From assembly GCF_027571385.1 (NCBI RefSeq), contig NZ_CP085636.1, positions 4,756,001 to 4,820,000 on the forward strand: DNA of 64,000 nucleotides, written 5' to 3'. Source of the DNA: Shewanella sp. MTB7 (GTDB taxonomy: Bacteria; Pseudomonadota; Gammaproteobacteria; Enterobacterales; Shewanellaceae). Of this stretch, positions 17,444 to 24,127 are shown in pieces. Each line of letters starts with the position of its first letter. The stretch's first letter is position 1. A model generated the notes under the pieces. It had not been told where the DNA came from, did not search any database, and saw nothing but the letters and a program-made list of their open reading frames with translations. The position numbers and the translations under genes were made by a program.

Positions 17444-18613
17444 TTAGTATTTTCTCACTATAGAACCGAAGAGTACCTGCGCTTTCTTAATAAAGAGTCT
17501 GGGGTTCGACATGAATATGGTGCCAAAACCTTGCAGTTGCATGCTTCGCTCTTTTTGATAAAGCTCTTTTGCATACTTTAAATTGATTTCTCCCCATATT
17601 TTTGCAAGAGCGCCTCTATTGAGTAAAACAGGTGAAACTTCTTTTTTTGCTTTCTTAAACAGTCCAGAATTAATAGAAAGCCAGAGACCCATCCCTCTTA
17701 CAAAGATATAGTCATTCGGATCTGCATTCGCAACAACAGGGGCCAATAGCTTCGGATATAAGATCTGCAAAAAATCGAGTTTTGGCGTCATAAAACAAAA
17801 ATTCCAAGTGTGATATAAACTGCACCACTCTTGGGATAGCTCCAACTTAAGAGATCTATCTCCCTCAGAGATACTGACATTTTTGATTTTAATTGCGCCG
17901 ATAACTGCACCACTTAACGCATTGTTTTTGTAACCGGCAACAAAGTCAGCTATAACCGCCTCTGAGATATTAACTGTTAGGAAGTTTCTACGGCCTCTAA
18001 TTTCATTATCATTAATTACACCTCTGGTTCTAACTGTTATATATTGCTTAAAATCAGCATCTTTTGTTTTTGTCTTGATGACTGAGAATATATCGCCCGT
18101 TAGTTTATAAATATCAATAGCCGACCGAATAAAACCAGCTCTAATACCGCATGTGACCCTTCTTTTTTCCATGATATGTATATAAACTTGGTGCATAAAC
18201 CTATGATCTTTCACCATAGCTTTGAGTAACAAATCTAATAAATATGTATAATGTAAAGTTCGTGTGATCAGTACATTGTTGGGCTCAGAGATAAGATCAT
18301 CACGAACGGCGATAACAGCAAGCTCACACAGAGCAGGATGTTTGCTTACAATCCCCGAACGCACCTCCTCAAGAAAGAGAGCCATATCTTGGGGACAAGT
18401 AAGCCTTCCCCCTAATAAATCTATAAATCCTTTTAAATCAGATAAGTACATATCATTCTTTAATATATCATTGAGAATGTTGGGATCTGATTTCATATTC
18501 ATATCAACATTCAGCTTTTCAATCACACAGTCTAACGTATAAGGCTTATTTACCTTGAAAATAGAAACGTTTTTTGTAATCTTGTTTGTCAGCGTTAACT
18601 CTTCAATTTCCAT
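17444..18613 (-). CDS. Unrecognised protein, 389 residues
   Basis: I recognise no family. The start is well supported by GGAGG six bases before the ATG. The protein is soluble-looking, without a signal peptide or membrane helix. Residues 1-190 are mostly helical (LTCPQDMALFLEEVRSGI, LHYTYLLDLLLKAMVKDHRF); residues 190-300 look more beta-rich (YITVRTRGVINDNEIRGRR, SGAVIGAIKIKNVSIS); the end is basic (NPRLFIKKAQVLFGSIVRKY). It stands alone in the accessory block, with a 44-bp perfect palindrome 44 bp upstream of its start. Codon use is AT-leaning compared with core neighbours. Confidence 0.65.
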   Translation of the reverse strand: MEIEELTLTNKITKNVSIFKVNKPYTLDCVIEKLNVDMNMKSDPNILNDILKNDMYLSDLKGFIDLLGGRLTCPQDMALFLEEVRSGIVSKHPALCELAVIAVRDDLISEPNNVLITRTLHYTYLLDLLLKAMVKDHRFMHQVYIHIMEKRRVTCGIRAGFIRSAIDIYKLTGDIFSVIKTKTKDADFKQYITVRTRGVINDNEIRGRRNFLTVNISEAVIADFVAGYKNNALSGAVIGAIKIKNVSISEGDRSLKLELSQEWCSLYHTWNFCFMTPKLDFLQILYPKLLAPVVANADPNDYIFVRGMGLWLSINSGLFKKAKKEVSPVLLNRGALAKIWGEINLKYAKELYQKERSMQLQGFGTIFMSNPRLFIKKAQVLFGSIVRKY

Positions 18614-18657: not shown

Positions 18658-18701
18658 TTTTGTTCACTTATGCTGCTATATAGCAGCATAAGTGAACAAA
18701 A
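18658..18701. promoter_or_regulatory. 44-bp perfect palindrome upstream of the 389-residue gene
   Basis: Every base from 18658 to 18701 pairs with its mirror position about the centre 18679/18680 (...TGCTGCTAT|ATAGCAGCA...). There is no loop spacer. The flanking bases are T before and A after the arms, so it is not a terminator on either strand. It lies in the leader of the 389-residue gene; an operator for a dimeric protein or a cruciform/RNA hairpin is possible. Confidence 0.6.
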
Positions 18702-18850: not shown

Positions 18851-18887
18851 AAAAAAGCCCTAAACGAGTCAGACTCGGCTTAGGGCT
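18851..18887 (-). terminator. Terminator of duplicated gene, copy 1
   Basis: Stem AGCCCTAA / TTAGGGCT enclosing a second small stem (GAGTC/GACTC), followed on the minus strand by TTTTTT. It is duplicated almost exactly at 20466-20502. Confidence 0.85.
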
Positions 18888-18933
18888 CAGCAATGTTAGA
18901 ATCGTTCAATTAAAGTAACCAACACTCAACAGA

Positions 18934-20097
18934 TTAATCCTTTAACTTTTCACGCTTATTTTGCATCATTTTACTACCCAAATAGCTGTCATCATAGTTT
19001 TTAAACGCCTTCAGCGTAGGGAGTTCAATCATCTCAACATGACTATTTTTAATCCCCCAACCAATAATGTTGTGGATTAAACCTGAGCCTTGGGCAATTT
19101 TCACATCTGTCTGGAAGTAAAGAGGAGCCTTAGACTCGTTGTTTTTACGGTATTTACTGGCGGCATAATAGATAGCATGTTGATCATTAGTAAATGCGTT
19201 GGCGTCTTTGTCTTCCTGCTCCAAACTGTTATTTCCGCTGACACAGGTCTCGGCTTTACGACATGTCTCAACAGTCTCCTTCATCACACTGGTATTTAAT
19301 GGCCAATCAGATTTTTTAGGTGATGTCTCCATCTTCTTAAACTGTCTGAAATGGGGTCGTGCCACAGATACCCATGTTGTATCCCACTTTCCAGCAACTG
19401 CATTAATTTGCCAGTTTTGACAAGTGCGATCTTTCTGCCAAGTTAATCCTGCATCAACCAAAATGTTAATATTCTGATACTCACTGCGCGCCCTATGCAT
19501 ATCGGCATTCTTTATCATACAAGCCGATATTGCTATCTCTTTAATTAACGGCTCTGAATCATATTTGGCGGCCAGCAAATGATGTAGCTCTTTGTAACGA
19601 GTCTTAAATTTAGTTTTCCAAAAATGAGGGTAGTCCCCATCAAAATTGCTACGTTTAAAGTCCAGCGTGGACGACCCTGCCTCATCTTTAACCCAATAAA
19701 TACCCGCAAAGATCCGCAGCTTAATCCCAAGCTGGTTGTTACCATCAACATCATTCCACGTCTCAACTTCATCAATTGCATCATCAATCCAGCTCGAATC
19801 CAGCACAGCTTTCTGATTTGAGTTAAGCGGCGCATCTGGTTGCAATTCAGACCATTCTAGCTGTACAACAATACCATCAACACTCTCTGCCCAGTCCGTA
19901 GGCTTTGATAAATCCGTCACATTTGGGTTGTCGAAACCATTACGAGAGCCGGGTACTTTAGACACATCGCCACGGGTATAAAATCCTGCTGCACGGTCTT
20001 TAGCTTCAACCTCCACACTTATGCCTGTACCTAAGATACCAGCGATCACAAGGGAGAGAATGGGGAAAACAGATTTTGAATTATTCAGTTTGTACAT
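18934..20097 (-). CDS. Secreted TIM-barrel-like protein of unknown family, copy 1
   Basis: 387 residues with a signal peptide (MYKLNNSKSVFPIL..., likely cleaved after VEAK or nearby, about residue 33). The mature protein has a beta/alpha pattern resembling glycoside-hydrolase barrels: DGIVVQLEWSELQP, a helix WIDDAIDEVETW, then LGIKLRIFAGI, later YKELHHLLAAKY and EIAISACM. No catalytic pair can be fixed with confidence. It is about three-quarters identical by eye to the copy at 20552-21739. Relative to that copy it lacks three residues after FAGIY, and eight more near residue 370. Cys residues occur in even number in the C-terminal half, compatible with disulfides. No homologous named family comes to mind. 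Confidence 0.75.
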   Translation of the reverse strand: MYKLNNSKSVFPILSLVIAGILGTGISVEVEAKDRAAGFYTRGDVSKVPGSRNGFDNPNVTDLSKPTDWAESVDGIVVQLEWSELQPDAPLNSNQKAVLDSSWIDDAIDEVETWNDVDGNNQLGIKLRIFAGIYWVKDEAGSSTLDFKRSNFDGDYPHFWKTKFKTRYKELHHLLAAKYDSEPLIKEIAISACMIKNADMHRARSEYQNINILVDAGLTWQKDRTCQNWQINAVAGKWDTTWVSVARPHFRQFKKMETSPKKSDWPLNTSVMKETVETCRKAETCVSGNNSLEQEDKDANAFTNDQHAIYYAASKYRKNNESKAPLYFQTDVKIAQGSGLIHNIIGWGIKNSHVEMIELPTLKAFKNYDDSYLGSKMMQNKREKLKD

Positions 20098-20465
20098 AAC
20101 TGCCTCTTTATTCTGTATATGTATGCTTAATTAAATAACCTCATATCTACAGCTATAAATACCGTCACTTATTCCATATTGTAATATTAATAGTATTTAT
20201 AAGGCGTAAAGCGTCAAGTTAACACTGCAAACAAGCTGCATCAATATGCAAGAAAACACTCAAACTTAAGCCTGAAGTAAAAAAACAGACACGAACACGA
20301 ATTAGATAATGAGATTCAAACGGTAGGTAAGCAGATATATAGCAAAGAAAATGAAAAAAACAGGAAACTAGCGAGCTTTAAATAGACTCGTAACAGATTC
20401 TGTATAACTTCCCCTTTTCTATGTATCAACTTCATGAACGCGACTATTAACACAGCTAAATTAAC
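20098..20465. promoter_or_regulatory. Duplicated upstream region, copy 1
   Basis: AT-rich leader and promoter region of copy 1; 20098-20385 has a clear counterpart at 21740-22023. I see no confident -35/-10 pair, only conserved blocks, including AATATTAATAGTATTTATAAGG near 20186-20205. The remaining 80 bp before the next terminator is unique. Confidence 0.5.
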
Positions 20466-20502
20466 AAAAAAGCCCTAAACGAGTCAGACTCGGCTTAGGG
20501 CT
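20466..20502 (-). terminator. Terminator of duplicated gene, copy 2
   Basis: Same hairpin as at 18851-18887 (AGCCCTAA / TTAGGGCT with inner GAGTC/GACTC), T-run on the minus strand. Confidence 0.85.
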
Positions 20503-20551
20503 CAACAATGTTAAAAGCTATCGATTAAATAACAGAATAATACTGAACAGA

Positions 20552-21739
20552 TTAATTCTTTAACTTAGTACGCTTTTTTTGCATATTATCGCTTGCCAGA
20601 TAATTAGTACTAGCAGAATTATTATCATCATATTTTTTAAAGGCTTTTAATGGCGGTAGCTCAATCAGTTTCACGTCACTATTTTGAATACCCCAATGAA
20701 TAATATTATGTATCAACACAGACCCCTGAACGACTTTAACATCGGTCTGGTAGTAAACTGGCGCCTTAGATTGATTACCGCGGTATTTACCCGCTACATA
20801 ATATAGGGGATGGCTATCGTTCGAGAATGCATTATCGTCCTTATCCTCTATCTCAAGACTGTTGTTACCGATAATACAATTCGATTCGAGTCGACAAGTT
20901 TCTACCATTGATTGCATAGTACTTTTACTTAACGGCCAATCCTTCTTTAAAGGAGGTGAAGTCATCTTCTTAAACTTCCTAAAGTGAGGGCGAGCGACAG
21001 ACACTCTAGTATTGTCCCACTTCCCCGCGACAGCTGTAATTTGCCACGTTTGACAATTCCGATCTTTTTGCCAAGTTAACCCCGCATCAACCAAAATATT
21101 AATATTCTGATACTCACTGCGTGCCCTATGCATATCGGCATTTTTTATCATACAAGCCGATATAGCAATCTCTTTAATAAGAGGCTCTGAGTCATATTTA
21201 GCGGCCAGCAACTGATGCAACTCTTTGTAACGAGTCTTAAAAGCACTTTTCCAGAAGTGTGGAAAATCGCCATCAAAATTGCTGCCTTTAAAATCCAACG
21301 TCGAAGAACCGGCCTCATTTTTTACCCATTGAGGCGTATAGATCCCTGCAAAAACCCTTAGCTTAATCCCAAGCTTATTGTTACCCGGAACATCATTCCA
21401 TGTCTCGACATCGTCAATCGCAGCATCAATCCAGCTCGAATCCAGCACAGCTTTCTGACCTGGAGCAACTGGCGCATCAGGTTGTAATGCATTCCACTCT
21501 ACCTGAACCACAATACCATCAACTTCCTTGCCCCAATCGGTAGGTTTTGATGTATCAGCAATATTTGGATCATCATAGCCATTACGCGAACCGGGCTGAT
21601 GACTTATATCGCCACGGGTATAAAACCCCTTGGCACGACTTTTAGCTTCAACTTCTACACTTATTCCCGCAGCAACAATACCAGCGACCACAAGGGAGAG
21701 CATAGGTAAAACAGATTTTGAATTATTCAGTTTGTACAT
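20552..21739 (-). CDS. Secreted TIM-barrel-like protein of unknown family, copy 2
   Basis: 395 residues; the paralog of the gene at 18934-20097. The signal peptide is nearly identical (MYKLNNSKSVLPML). The central block around EIAISACMIKNADMHRARS is identical in both copies, pointing to a conserved functional site. This copy keeps TPQWVKNEAG where copy 1 has WVKDEAG, and has eight extra residues near the C-terminus (NNSASTNY). The fold pattern suggests an extracellular or periplasmic barrel enzyme or binding protein, possibly acting on carbohydrate; this is inference from strand/helix pattern only. Confidence 0.75.
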   Translation of the reverse strand: MYKLNNSKSVLPMLSLVVAGIVAAGISVEVEAKSRAKGFYTRGDISHQPGSRNGYDDPNIADTSKPTDWGKEVDGIVVQVEWNALQPDAPVAPGQKAVLDSSWIDAAIDDVETWNDVPGNNKLGIKLRVFAGIYTPQWVKNEAGSSTLDFKGSNFDGDFPHFWKSAFKTRYKELHQLLAAKYDSEPLIKEIAISACMIKNADMHRARSEYQNINILVDAGLTWQKDRNCQTWQITAVAGKWDNTRVSVARPHFRKFKKMTSPPLKKDWPLSKSTMQSMVETCRLESNCIIGNNSLEIEDKDDNAFSNDSHPLYYVAGKYRGNQSKAPVYYQTDVKVVQGSVLIHNIIHWGIQNSDVKLIELPPLKAFKKYDDNNSASTNYLASDNMQKKRTKLKN

Positions 21740-22155
21740 AACTGCCTCTTTATTCTGTATATGTATGTTTTATTAAATAACCTCATATCTACAGCTATAA
21801 ATACTGTTATTCACCTCCATATTATAATATTAATAGTATTTATAAGGCGTGAAGCATTAAACTAACATTGAAAACAAGCTGCGTCAATAAGCAAGAAAAC
21901 AGCCAAACTTAAGCCTGAAGTGAAAAAACAGATATGAATTAGATAATAAGATTCAAGCATTAGGTAAGAAAATATAGCAAAGCCAATGAACAAGAAAATG
22001 GAAGTTAAGCGAGCTTTAAATAGCTTGAGTTATTCTTAGACAAGGCATAACAACCTACCACTTAAGCTCATTATTAAATCTGAGTAAGAAGCTTAAAGTT
22101 ATGCCATTAAGAATGAATAGTACAAATAAGAATGAATAGTACAAAACCCTATTTA
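21740..22155. other. Upstream region of copy 2 and a short tandem repeat
   Basis: 21740-22023 is the duplicated leader/promoter region. 22108-22126 and 22127-22145 are two perfect copies of a 19-bp unit (TAAGAATGAATAGTACAAA), ending 10 bp before the fliB-type stop codon. No other gene or RNA is visible. Confidence 0.6.
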
Positions 22156-23349
22156 CTAACGACCACAGCTTTTCAGCAAACTGAGTATCGCTTGTGAGCC
22201 AGAGAAGGAGGATTGTTGCAGAATGCTTCTAGCTGACTTTATAAAATTGGGTTTATGTAGTCTCACTACGTGGTAAACCTGAAAACACAAGACGATATCA
22301 CGTTCACTTAAGCCATTGTACTTTGCAGCCATAACGGCGAGATAACAACGTAACATAAAACAGTCGAGTATCAGTAAGTTGAACGCAGCCAATGGGTTTT
22401 TATCTGCTGTCAGCGGAAATTGCAGATGATAAATATAGTAGAGTAGATAACGGCTAAACAGATCCTCATAGGATGCCAATGCCGGAATGGCAATATCATT
22501 CCAGGCACTATTTATACGTTCCATATCCAGCTCACCCTTTGTATCTGACATGGCTAAAATGGCATCATTTAACTCACCAAATCTGGGACGAAAACGTCTC
22601 GGGTGTTCGTCACAACACATAGTATGAAGCGAAAGAAAGGTATGCAGTTGATGTTGTGGCACATAGGGGAATGATTCAAAAGCCTGTTGGAGTTCCCCAT
22701 TTTTTGCTATATGTGATAAATACATGAACTTATCATCCAACAAACCTAGCGAAGCTTGCTGCTTAGATACACTATCGGCGCAATTGACCAACATACCTAT
22801 GGCAAACAAGCTATGTTGCCAGTTTAAATGTTCATCGAGCAACAACTCGATACTATAGTCATAGGCCTTGACAGCCCACTCCGGCACGGATCTAGGAAAA
22901 ACATCCTTTTCGGTCGCATGACTCTCAAAGATAAAAGCATCCGTACCAAACAATATCTGCCTGGCAGCCTCAGGACAGGACAACGAAAGACTTTCGAATG
23001 TATCAGCCCCTCTCACTCTAGAGATCCTGGGGTAACTTCTGCAGGTGTCACTCAAGGCATCTTCTCCCGCGAGAACATGGATCTTACAAAGCTTGTTCTG
23101 TTGCAGAAACGGACACTTCCCCTGATCATTAAAGCGAATAATGATCAAATCATCATCTTTGTTGTTAATTAACTGCATCGAATCTTCAGCTAGACTCTTC
23201 AACTCCGGATGCGCCATCGTTTTGTGATAACTTGCTTTATCGACATGAACCGACCAGTCGATACAACAGGAATCTTCGCAGTCGGGACCTATGCAGTGAA
23301 GTTCACTGACACGTAAAGCACGCTGCTTTTGCAGCCGATAGTTAAACAC
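22156..23349 (-). CDS. fliB: FliB-type lysine-N-methylase, orphan
   Basis: About 397 residues from a GTG at 23349; an ATG at 23418 in the same frame would overlap the upstream CPBP gene by 50 bp. FliB features: a Cys cluster CIGPDCEDSCCIDWSVHVD, then CPFLQQNKLCKIHVLAGEDALSDTCRSYPR, whose Cys residues match those of flagellin lysine methylase. FliB methylates surface lysines of flagellin in Salmonella. No flagellar gene is in this window, so the substrate here is open. The N-terminus lies at the join with AT-rich DNA, and the true start may have been displaced. Confidence 0.75.
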   Translation of the reverse strand: MFNYRLQKQRALRVSELHCIGPDCEDSCCIDWSVHVDKASYHKTMAHPELKSLAEDSMQLINNKDDDLIIIRFNDQGKCPFLQQNKLCKIHVLAGEDALSDTCRSYPRISRVRGADTFESLSLSCPEAARQILFGTDAFIFESHATEKDVFPRSVPEWAVKAYDYSIELLLDEHLNWQHSLFAIGMLVNCADSVSKQQASLGLLDDKFMYLSHIAKNGELQQAFESFPYVPQHQLHTFLSLHTMCCDEHPRRFRPRFGELNDAILAMSDTKGELDMERINSAWNDIAIPALASYEDLFSRYLLYYIYHLQFPLTADKNPLAAFNLLILDCFMLRCYLAVMAAKYNGLSERDIVLCFQVYHVVRLHKPNFIKSARSILQQSSFSGSQAILSLLKSCGR

Positions 23350-23368
23350 GGCTGCGCGCGGCCTATCC

Positions 23369-24127
23369 TTATTTGTAGTGTTTAATGAAGAACTCAGGGA
23401 ACAAAACCAAACTTGCATTTATTAAAAAATGTATCAGAATTAGAAATTCTAAACGTTTGAATTTATTTAGAATAAAACAAGTCCCAAAAATCAGGCTAAA
23501 AACCACATAATTTAAAGTTAGCCCTAAACTTCTAAATTCCCCATGAATAAATACAAATGAAATCGCAATTATTGGTAGTATAAACCAAAGGTTTGGTATT
23601 ATTCGTTTTAGTCGTGTTAATACAAACCCTCTAAATATCACATCTTCTGTAATAGCAGCTGTAAATGCTAGAACAATAATAGTAACTAAACACTCTAATG
23701 TGCTAATTGGGCCAATAAATCCTGCTAGGGATATTGTTGGAAGCTCGTTTCCATAATATATTATTGGAATAATAAGTGCTGAAACTATTAATATAGCTAA
23801 CATCCCGATAAACCAATGTTTATGTTTAATAAACCATGACTAATCAACTCCAACAGAACTCCAGGTTTCATTATTTTTTATTAACGCATATCTTATAAAT
23901 AAAAATGAAACCCAATGAAACAACAAATTAGAGAAAACAAAATACCACCATTCAGTTCTTTCATTATTATTATGTAATGATGAAATAAAATCATCTGGTA
24001 AAAATGGAAAGAATATAGAACTAAAAAAGTCTGTACTGTATAGAACAGGATATGCAATTAAGCCAACTATCAAGGCGACAACCGTATATTTATCTAAATT
24101 GGTTTTCGTATGAATGTCTGAGTTCAT
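23369..24127 (-). pseudogene. CPBP intramembrane protease gene split by an amber codon
   Basis: Two readings in the same frame, 23840-24127 (95 residues) and 23369-23803 (start at an internal Met), are separated only by a TAG at 23840-23842. Joined, they give about 252 codons, a normal CPBP (CAAX-type) length with several membrane helices. The second half carries the family motifs: TEDVIFRGFVL (the EExxxR position reads EDxxFR), FVFIHGEF and HFLINASL. The region is much more AT-rich than the genes around it, suggesting transfer. The stop may have inactivated the gene, or a shorter product may start downstream. Members cut prenylated proteins or act in bacteriocin self-immunity. Confidence 0.65.

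Follow-up and report, generated by a model that had tools for sequence, protein, structure and literature searches.

The two tandem genes analysed here belong to a family of predicted secreted barrel proteins, some members of which lie beside sulfatase and GH110 genes and which occurs across genomes together with GH110 and sulfatases, and the two copies are under purifying selection. Our preferred reading, to which we give about even odds, is that the pair is part of a new family of secreted glycoside-hydrolase-type TIM-barrel proteins acting on carrageenan-like sulfated galactans. The genes lie in a stretch of 64,000 nucleotides of Shewanella sp. MTB7 (the window), with the following features:

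18851..18887, minus strand: terminator-like hairpin and U-run behind copy A, the same sequence as behind copy B (folding, genome scan)
18934..20097, minus strand: copy A, open reading frame of a 387-aa, predicted secreted barrel-family protein whose beta3 loop lacks TPQ
19426..19566, minus strand: part of copy A whose protein sequence equals that of copy B; it covers strand beta4 and the loop after it and includes D199 (D202 of copy B)
20002..20097, minus strand: signal-peptide region of copy A, residues 1-32 (by eye)
20098..20340, minus strand: leader/promoter region of copy A, its start-proximal part kept in four species
20466..20502, minus strand: terminator-like hairpin and U-run of copy B (folding, genome scan)
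20552..21739, minus strand: copy B, open reading frame of a 395-aa, predicted secreted barrel-family protein
21059..21199, minus strand: the matching part of copy B, which covers strand beta4 and the loop after it and includes D202
21644..21739, minus strand: signal-peptide region of copy B, residues 1-32 (by eye)
21740..21980, minus strand: leader/promoter region of copy B

A sequence-only reading had described two genes of 387 and 395 codons, repeated head to tail, each with a signal peptide and matching no recognised family, and this description is borne out. The two proteins are identical in 297 of 396 aligned columns (about 75%, BLASTP). Each starts with a hydrophobic, signal-like leader (MYKLNNSKSV...VEVEA-K, by eye), and the putative signal peptide ends in VEVEA before a lysine shared by all 14 aligned members. 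Secretion of both proteins is supported on this reading by eye. Pfam gave no match for either at E up to 1, GH42 (PF02449), GH14 and DUF4832 (PF16116) included, NCBIfam gave one match only (E 0.19), and PDB sequence searches with copy B and with a 14-row family profile gave none, so that the window proteins go unrecognised by Pfam and NCBIfam alike. Copy B found nothing in phage and plasmid records or in PHROGs, where four families were weakly matched by one family member each (best E 0.0024), and two scans of viral contigs yielded no confirmed match.

The earlier suggestion that the block around EIAISACMIKNADMHRARS is identical in both copies because of selection, while other parts have drifted, holds at the protein level. 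Alignment codons 181-220 carry 10 synonymous and 0 nonsynonymous changes between the copies and the EIAISACMIKNADMHRARS block is protein-identical, so the constraint acts on the protein. Across the whole gene, the comparison of the copies gave dN 0.154, dS 1.45 and dN/dS 0.106, that is, purifying selection. In the fold model described below, the invariant block maps to strand beta4 and its loop with the likely acid residue.

The flanking DNA is repeated as well. An identical 37-nt hairpin stands behind both genes, as the notion of a shared terminator had it; its folding energies at the two sites are -22.8 and -23.6 kcal/mol (z -4.15 and -6.36), and a scan of the whole 6.37-Mb genome that allowed up to 3 mismatches found no further site. 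A simple terminator consensus scan listed neither hairpin (four other sites against 2.0 expected), hence the terminator reading depends on the folding result. The upstream DNA of the copies is similar over 123 nt (88%) and 41 nt (85%), and the start-proximal block is also kept in orthologues of three other species. Of the duplicated promoters proposed earlier, the similar and partly conserved upstream DNA therefore stands, whereas proven promoters do not, as the promoter consensus was matched 14 times where 10.8 matches (sd 3.3) were expected.

The pair is not unique: its own genome encodes nine full-length members. Altogether we gathered 25 full-length barrels, 24 in five of 129 Shewanella genomes and one in a Campylobacterota metagenome-assembled genome (MAG): nine in the own genome (G000), five each in Shewanella hanedai (G014) and G516, four in G472, and one each in G442 and the MAG. 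A split further copy in the own genome, L021, is excluded from all counts; matching stretches there number 11. The 14-row profile likewise matched five of the 129 genomes of the genus, and among 369 genomes sampled from the class the own genome was the sole match. A named-genome scan found Shewanella hanedai and one distant copy; it used six peptide patterns of a single member protein, by which rarity outside Shewanella is not proven. The latter shares 48% identity with the query, lies among housekeeping genes of a MAG labelled 'uncultured Nitratifractor' (a campylobacterotan genus) and has an N-terminal extension. One member, L020, carries a C-terminal tectonin domain (PF19193, E 1.1e-34), and other long members show extra domains by eye. 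Among the titles and abstract openings that an open-access library listed for the species, GH families and substrates concerned, none describes the barrel family.

The link to sulfated galactans comes from the genomic context of other members. In Pseudoalteromonas distincta U2A, a lambda-carrageenan cascade of alternating S1_8 sulfatases, GH110 and a GH2 beta-galactosidase is described, and galactans of the lambda-carrageenan type are counted there among the most sulfated polysaccharides known (PMC12549532); a Shewanella strain depolymerising carrageenans, lambda included, is also on record (PMC11353762). We scanned about 9.5 kb to either side of the 20 loci that hold the 24 Shewanella members, using blastp with seven sulfatase and two GH110 queries only. 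Sulfatase and/or GH110 genes were found at 7 of the 20 loci and within this distance at none of the other 13, the window pair among them. The orthologues L017, L024 and L051 have sulfatases and GH110 in their neighbourhood, L018 has a sulfatase, L021 and L025 have GH110 next door, and at L019, a His333 member (copy B numbering), the sulfatases stand about 7 kb off, beyond katG and further genes. All six members with Glu at position 333 lie at these seven loci against 1 of the 19 others (MAG copy included), a tally for which, as the members share ancestry, we claim no p-value. On the 17-kb stretch around the MAG copy, scanned with fewer queries, neither sulfatase nor GH110 was found.

The own genome has a 33-kb sulfated-galactan cluster, which begins at 5252961, reaches the family gene L017 at 5285279-5286364 and comprises nine sulfatase matches, GH110, a TonB receptor, a GntR regulator, an SDR, 2-keto-3-deoxy-galactonokinase, a sodium symporter, SMP-30, aldose epimerase, and the galactose genes GalE, GalT and galactokinase. 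One of its sulfatases matches S1_8B (9bbd) of the P. distincta cascade at E 1.5e-157, and GH110 matches 7jw4 at E 1.2e-99 here and at E 1.1e-215 at the S. hanedai L025 locus. The cluster at L017 thus resembles that cascade in joining an S1_8B-like sulfatase with GH110, which the window locus does not, and has the TonB receptor and galactose genes in addition. For one sulfatase near L024 and for the one next to L018, the best match is a kappa-carrageenan S1_16 sulfatase, so that the exact type of carrageenan is not settled. A multihaem cytochrome/TPR gene (domains taken from the S. hanedai counterpart) separates the last sulfatase from L017, which is oriented opposite to the adjacent sulfatases; as the member stands on the outer side of this gene in both the own genome and S. 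hanedai, it shares no operon with the sulfatases. The family gene of G516 stands inside the cluster, flanked by sulfatases.

Furthermore, the beta-barrel II domain of GH110, a family of alpha-1,3-galactosidases, occurs in 5 of the 129 genus genomes, the same five that carry the barrel family. By IspE identity, G496 (86%) and G511 (82%) are near and lack both, whereas the distant G442 (69%) has both, so single-clade inheritance does not explain the match, which reflects few independent events, at least two. Unlike P. distincta, which uses GH2, the own genome has the barrel family and gave no match to the GH2 C domain (PF02836), a control search for which was positive in 5 of 14 known genomes. 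GH35 was not found either, and the sole GH42 match was a barrel-family member, in a galactosidase search that covered these three families.

Regarding the fold, a barrel-shaped enzyme or binding protein had been proposed from the sequence, with structure prediction and a fold search as the check. The AF2 model of copy B (four sequences) reached a pLDDT of 40 and was excluded from the fold search, so the model of the MAG relative (28-29% identical; moderate quality, pLDDT 63.6, pTM 0.71) was used. It is an eight-stranded barrel resembling glycoside hydrolases, with no helix between beta1 and beta2, and superposes on solved structures of the GH14/GH35/GH5 type of TIM barrel, a comparison made at the level of the whole barrel. 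The highest structural Z was obtained with GH14 beta-amylases (18.8, rmsd 4.2, 287 aligned); the top rows from Foldseek include GH42 structures, and epimerases and other non-hydrolase barrels follow in lower rows. The likeness to GH14 is one of fold, as no sequence relation was detected (no GH14 profile match among 14 members at E 0.5) and a starch context differs from a galactan one. The GH14 acid also sits in the loop after beta4. The barrel is thus supported, on the model of a relative, but an enzymatic role is less secure in the window pair than in the related proteins, because the pair has Asp at the putative acid position where 20 of 25 members have Glu.

Among the active-site positions examined (copy B numbering), R42, W82, R128, W138, W241, N292, Y329, Q331 and E360 are invariant in 25 of 25 members. 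Position 202, in the loop after beta4, is Glu in 20 and Asp in five, which are exactly the window group, and position 333, at the end of beta7, is Glu in six, Asp in five, Asn in 11 and His in three. Copy A lacks three residues (TPQ) of the beta3 loop; P136 is kept in 24 of 25. The best profile match outside the family, among 15 proteins compared, was the DUF4832-type protein L061 (90% probability, E 1.7e-6, 108 columns), which has a GH42-like N-terminal part and differs in its DUF4832 (PF16116) C-terminal domain, a profile that matched none of the 14 family members. A global profile alignment with L061 (78% probability, single template, of low confidence after beta4) places the Glu of its GEW motif on position 202, making residue 202 the best candidate acid, and its beta7 Glu on Gln331, leaving E360 (beta8) or residue 333 (beta7) as candidates for the second carboxylate; alignment of residue 333 with the beta7 Glu of L061 as a nucleophile was rejected on the same ground. 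With 333 varied and the L061 beta7 Glu on Gln331, the catalytic residues of the family would not be a standard pair. The corresponding carboxylates of the window pair are D202, D333 and E360.

Taken together, these observations suggest that sulfatases and GH110 would first expose beta-linked galactose units, and that the barrel members of the clusters would then cleave the beta-galactosidic bond, the step of GH2 in the Pseudoalteromonas cascade, with Glu/Asp202 as the acid and, as its partner, either Glu360 (beta8, invariant) or residue 333 (beta7). The window pair is a paralogous side branch outside the clusters; it is most likely directed at the same glycan class and may be either an altered enzyme or a glycan binder. 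Against this reading stand the 13 loci, that of the window pair included, with neither sulfatase nor GH110 gene nearby, the separate position of the cluster member in the own genome and S. hanedai, the non-standard carboxylates, the moderate quality of a model built on a relative and the small number of independent events behind the co-distribution. The beta-galactosidase step in the own genome may also be filled by another enzyme, from GH1, GH16, GH53, GH147 or GH150 for instance.

That the window pair, and perhaps the members with Asn or His at 333, are non-catalytic glycan binders derived from an enzyme, with the barrel as a lectin-like scaffold that is fused to tectonin in some, is possible if rather doubtful. 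The Asp at 202 in all five window-group members against Glu in all 20 others, the lack of Glu333 in 19 of 25 members, 18 of which are away from sulfatase or GH110 genes while all Glu333 members are near, the tectonin fusion of L020 and the absence of TPQ from copy A all point that way. However, R42, R128, N292, Q331 and E360 are kept in every member, Asp, too, can act as a carboxylate, and purifying selection across the barrel cannot separate a binder from an enzyme. We consider it unlikely that the proteins are secreted TIM-barrel enzymes for a substrate other than galactan, with the GH110 and sulfatase neighbourhood incidental. The 13 of 20 loci without either gene within about 9.5 kb, the Campylobacterota copy alone among housekeeping genes and the epimerases and non-hydrolase barrels in the lower Foldseek rows are consistent with such a substrate, but the restriction of the family and GH110 to the very same 5 of 129 genomes, a distant species included, and the G516 gene between sulfatases argue against it.

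A divergent but true GH42 beta-galactosidase is very improbable. Overall barrel, W-x-x-L-x-P after beta2 and '...P-x-W-[VL]' in beta3 are shared with GH42 (Pfam Glyco_hydro_42), whose structures are among the top Foldseek rows, and the GH42 profile (PF02449) gave weak matches to 4 of 14 aligned members at profile positions of about 32-134. Yet only one barely passes the cut-off (21.8 against 21, over 113 residues only) and the window proteins give none, so the profile searches leave the pair without a recognised family while some relatives show these weak GH42 matches. Compared with two full GH42 proteins together, the family profile reached a probability of 69% across 96 columns (62.5% and 4.9% with one protein at a time), against at most 7.3% for a GH10 control barrel in five single comparisons (2.4% with five aligned), and the alignment stops short of the GH42 acid/base site, where Cys196 stands in place of the Glu (by eye, ungapped). 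GH42 carries its Asn-Glu acid/base where beta4 ends and a Glu nucleophile at beta7; residue 333 of the family, where beta7 ends, is Glu in only 6 of 25 members. The family proteins, of about 390 aa and with no beta1-beta2 helix in the MAG-relative model, differ from the open frames of 676-691 aa of the two GH42 proteins.

Returning to the galactan reading, we put forward a wider proposal tentatively and with clearly less than even confidence. The proteins would be the founding set of a new GH family for the beta-galactosidase step of lambda-carrageenan-type breakdown in Shewanella, where searches for GH2, GH35 and canonical GH42 found none (one genome tested), and would have radiated within single genomes with exchanged carboxylates, E202/E333 near clusters, D202/D333 in the window pair and E202/N333 or H333 elsewhere, moving from hydrolase to altered mechanism or binder. 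If the galactan reading is right, 24 Shewanella genes, one to nine per genome, are candidate enzymes for an unfilled step of lambda-carrageenan-type degradation, and they form a small series of paralogues with the putative catalytic Glu changed to Asp, Asn or His, mostly away from galactan clusters.

The window pair itself is an orthologous group at one place in four species, between sirB2 and prmC, with one copy in three species and two in this genome only. A recent tandem duplication was considered and judged the less likely course, since dS between the copies is as high as between species and copy B falls outside copy A and the three orthologues (support 95/88 in a tree that warns of long branches elsewhere). 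Nucleotide identity across the locus is a mosaic, while the noncoding flanks of A are closest to those of B; a duplication of older date, with exchange, is the likelier history. For six flanking genes, dS was 0.28-0.78 between the own genome and S. hanedai, 0.14-0.31 between G516 and G472, and 0.71-1.64 between S. hanedai and G516, whereas the window gene gave 1.38 (copy A), 1.35 and only 0.40 for the same pairs; copy B against S. hanedai was beyond the computable range of the method. The locus thus does not follow its neighbours, and the simplest reading would be an exchange of alleles between species at this place.

In the sirB2-prmC interval, the divergence of the family gene in the window and in three fetched stretches from other Shewanella genomes (L023, L052 and L055) is at odds with that of the flanking genes, the dS between Shewanella hanedai and the family-bearing genome G516 being 0.40 for the family gene versus 0.71-1.64 across six flanking genes. 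This conflict suggests that alleles have been exchanged between species at this spot. In the G516 orthologue, the expected start, MYQLKK (L052, near 6698, minus strand), is shifted by one base relative to the reading frame of the remaining gene, and an internal ATG within the signal peptide may serve as translation start.

The surroundings of the window pair comprise the following features:

17444-18613, minus strand: ORF of 389 aa, between the pair and sirB2
18658-18701: perfect palindrome of 44 nt, made up of two 22-nt arms without spacer, downstream of copy A
22156-23418, minus strand: FliB, flagellin lysine-N-methylase (NF038110, E 3.4e-78, NCBIfam), directly upstream of copy B

Both the 389-aa ORF, for which the Pfam search gave nothing below E 0.1 and the NCBIfam search zero matches, and the fliB-type gene were not seen in the stretches fetched for the three orthologous sirB2-prmC loci. 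As RNA, the palindrome folds with -30.2 kcal/mol (z -9.0), and it may represent a terminator or a mobile-element remnant.

Elsewhere in the MTB7 genome, a second family copy (L021, 6093-7844) is split by frame breaks; its positional counterpart in S. hanedai (L025) forms a single open frame of 580 aa with an extra C-terminal stretch. The copy of the Campylobacterota MAG (L034, 7133-9049) has an N-terminal extension, in which two similar stretches were recognized by eye and zero Pfam matches were found; this copy is solitary, with housekeeping genes all around, and likely reflects a transfer, or else a contig that has to be checked. Some long members of the family end in a tectonin domain of lectin type, which was assigned by Pfam in L020 (6485-8299) only and by eye or length in L036, L038 and L053; in three genomes such a long member adjoins a shorter one.
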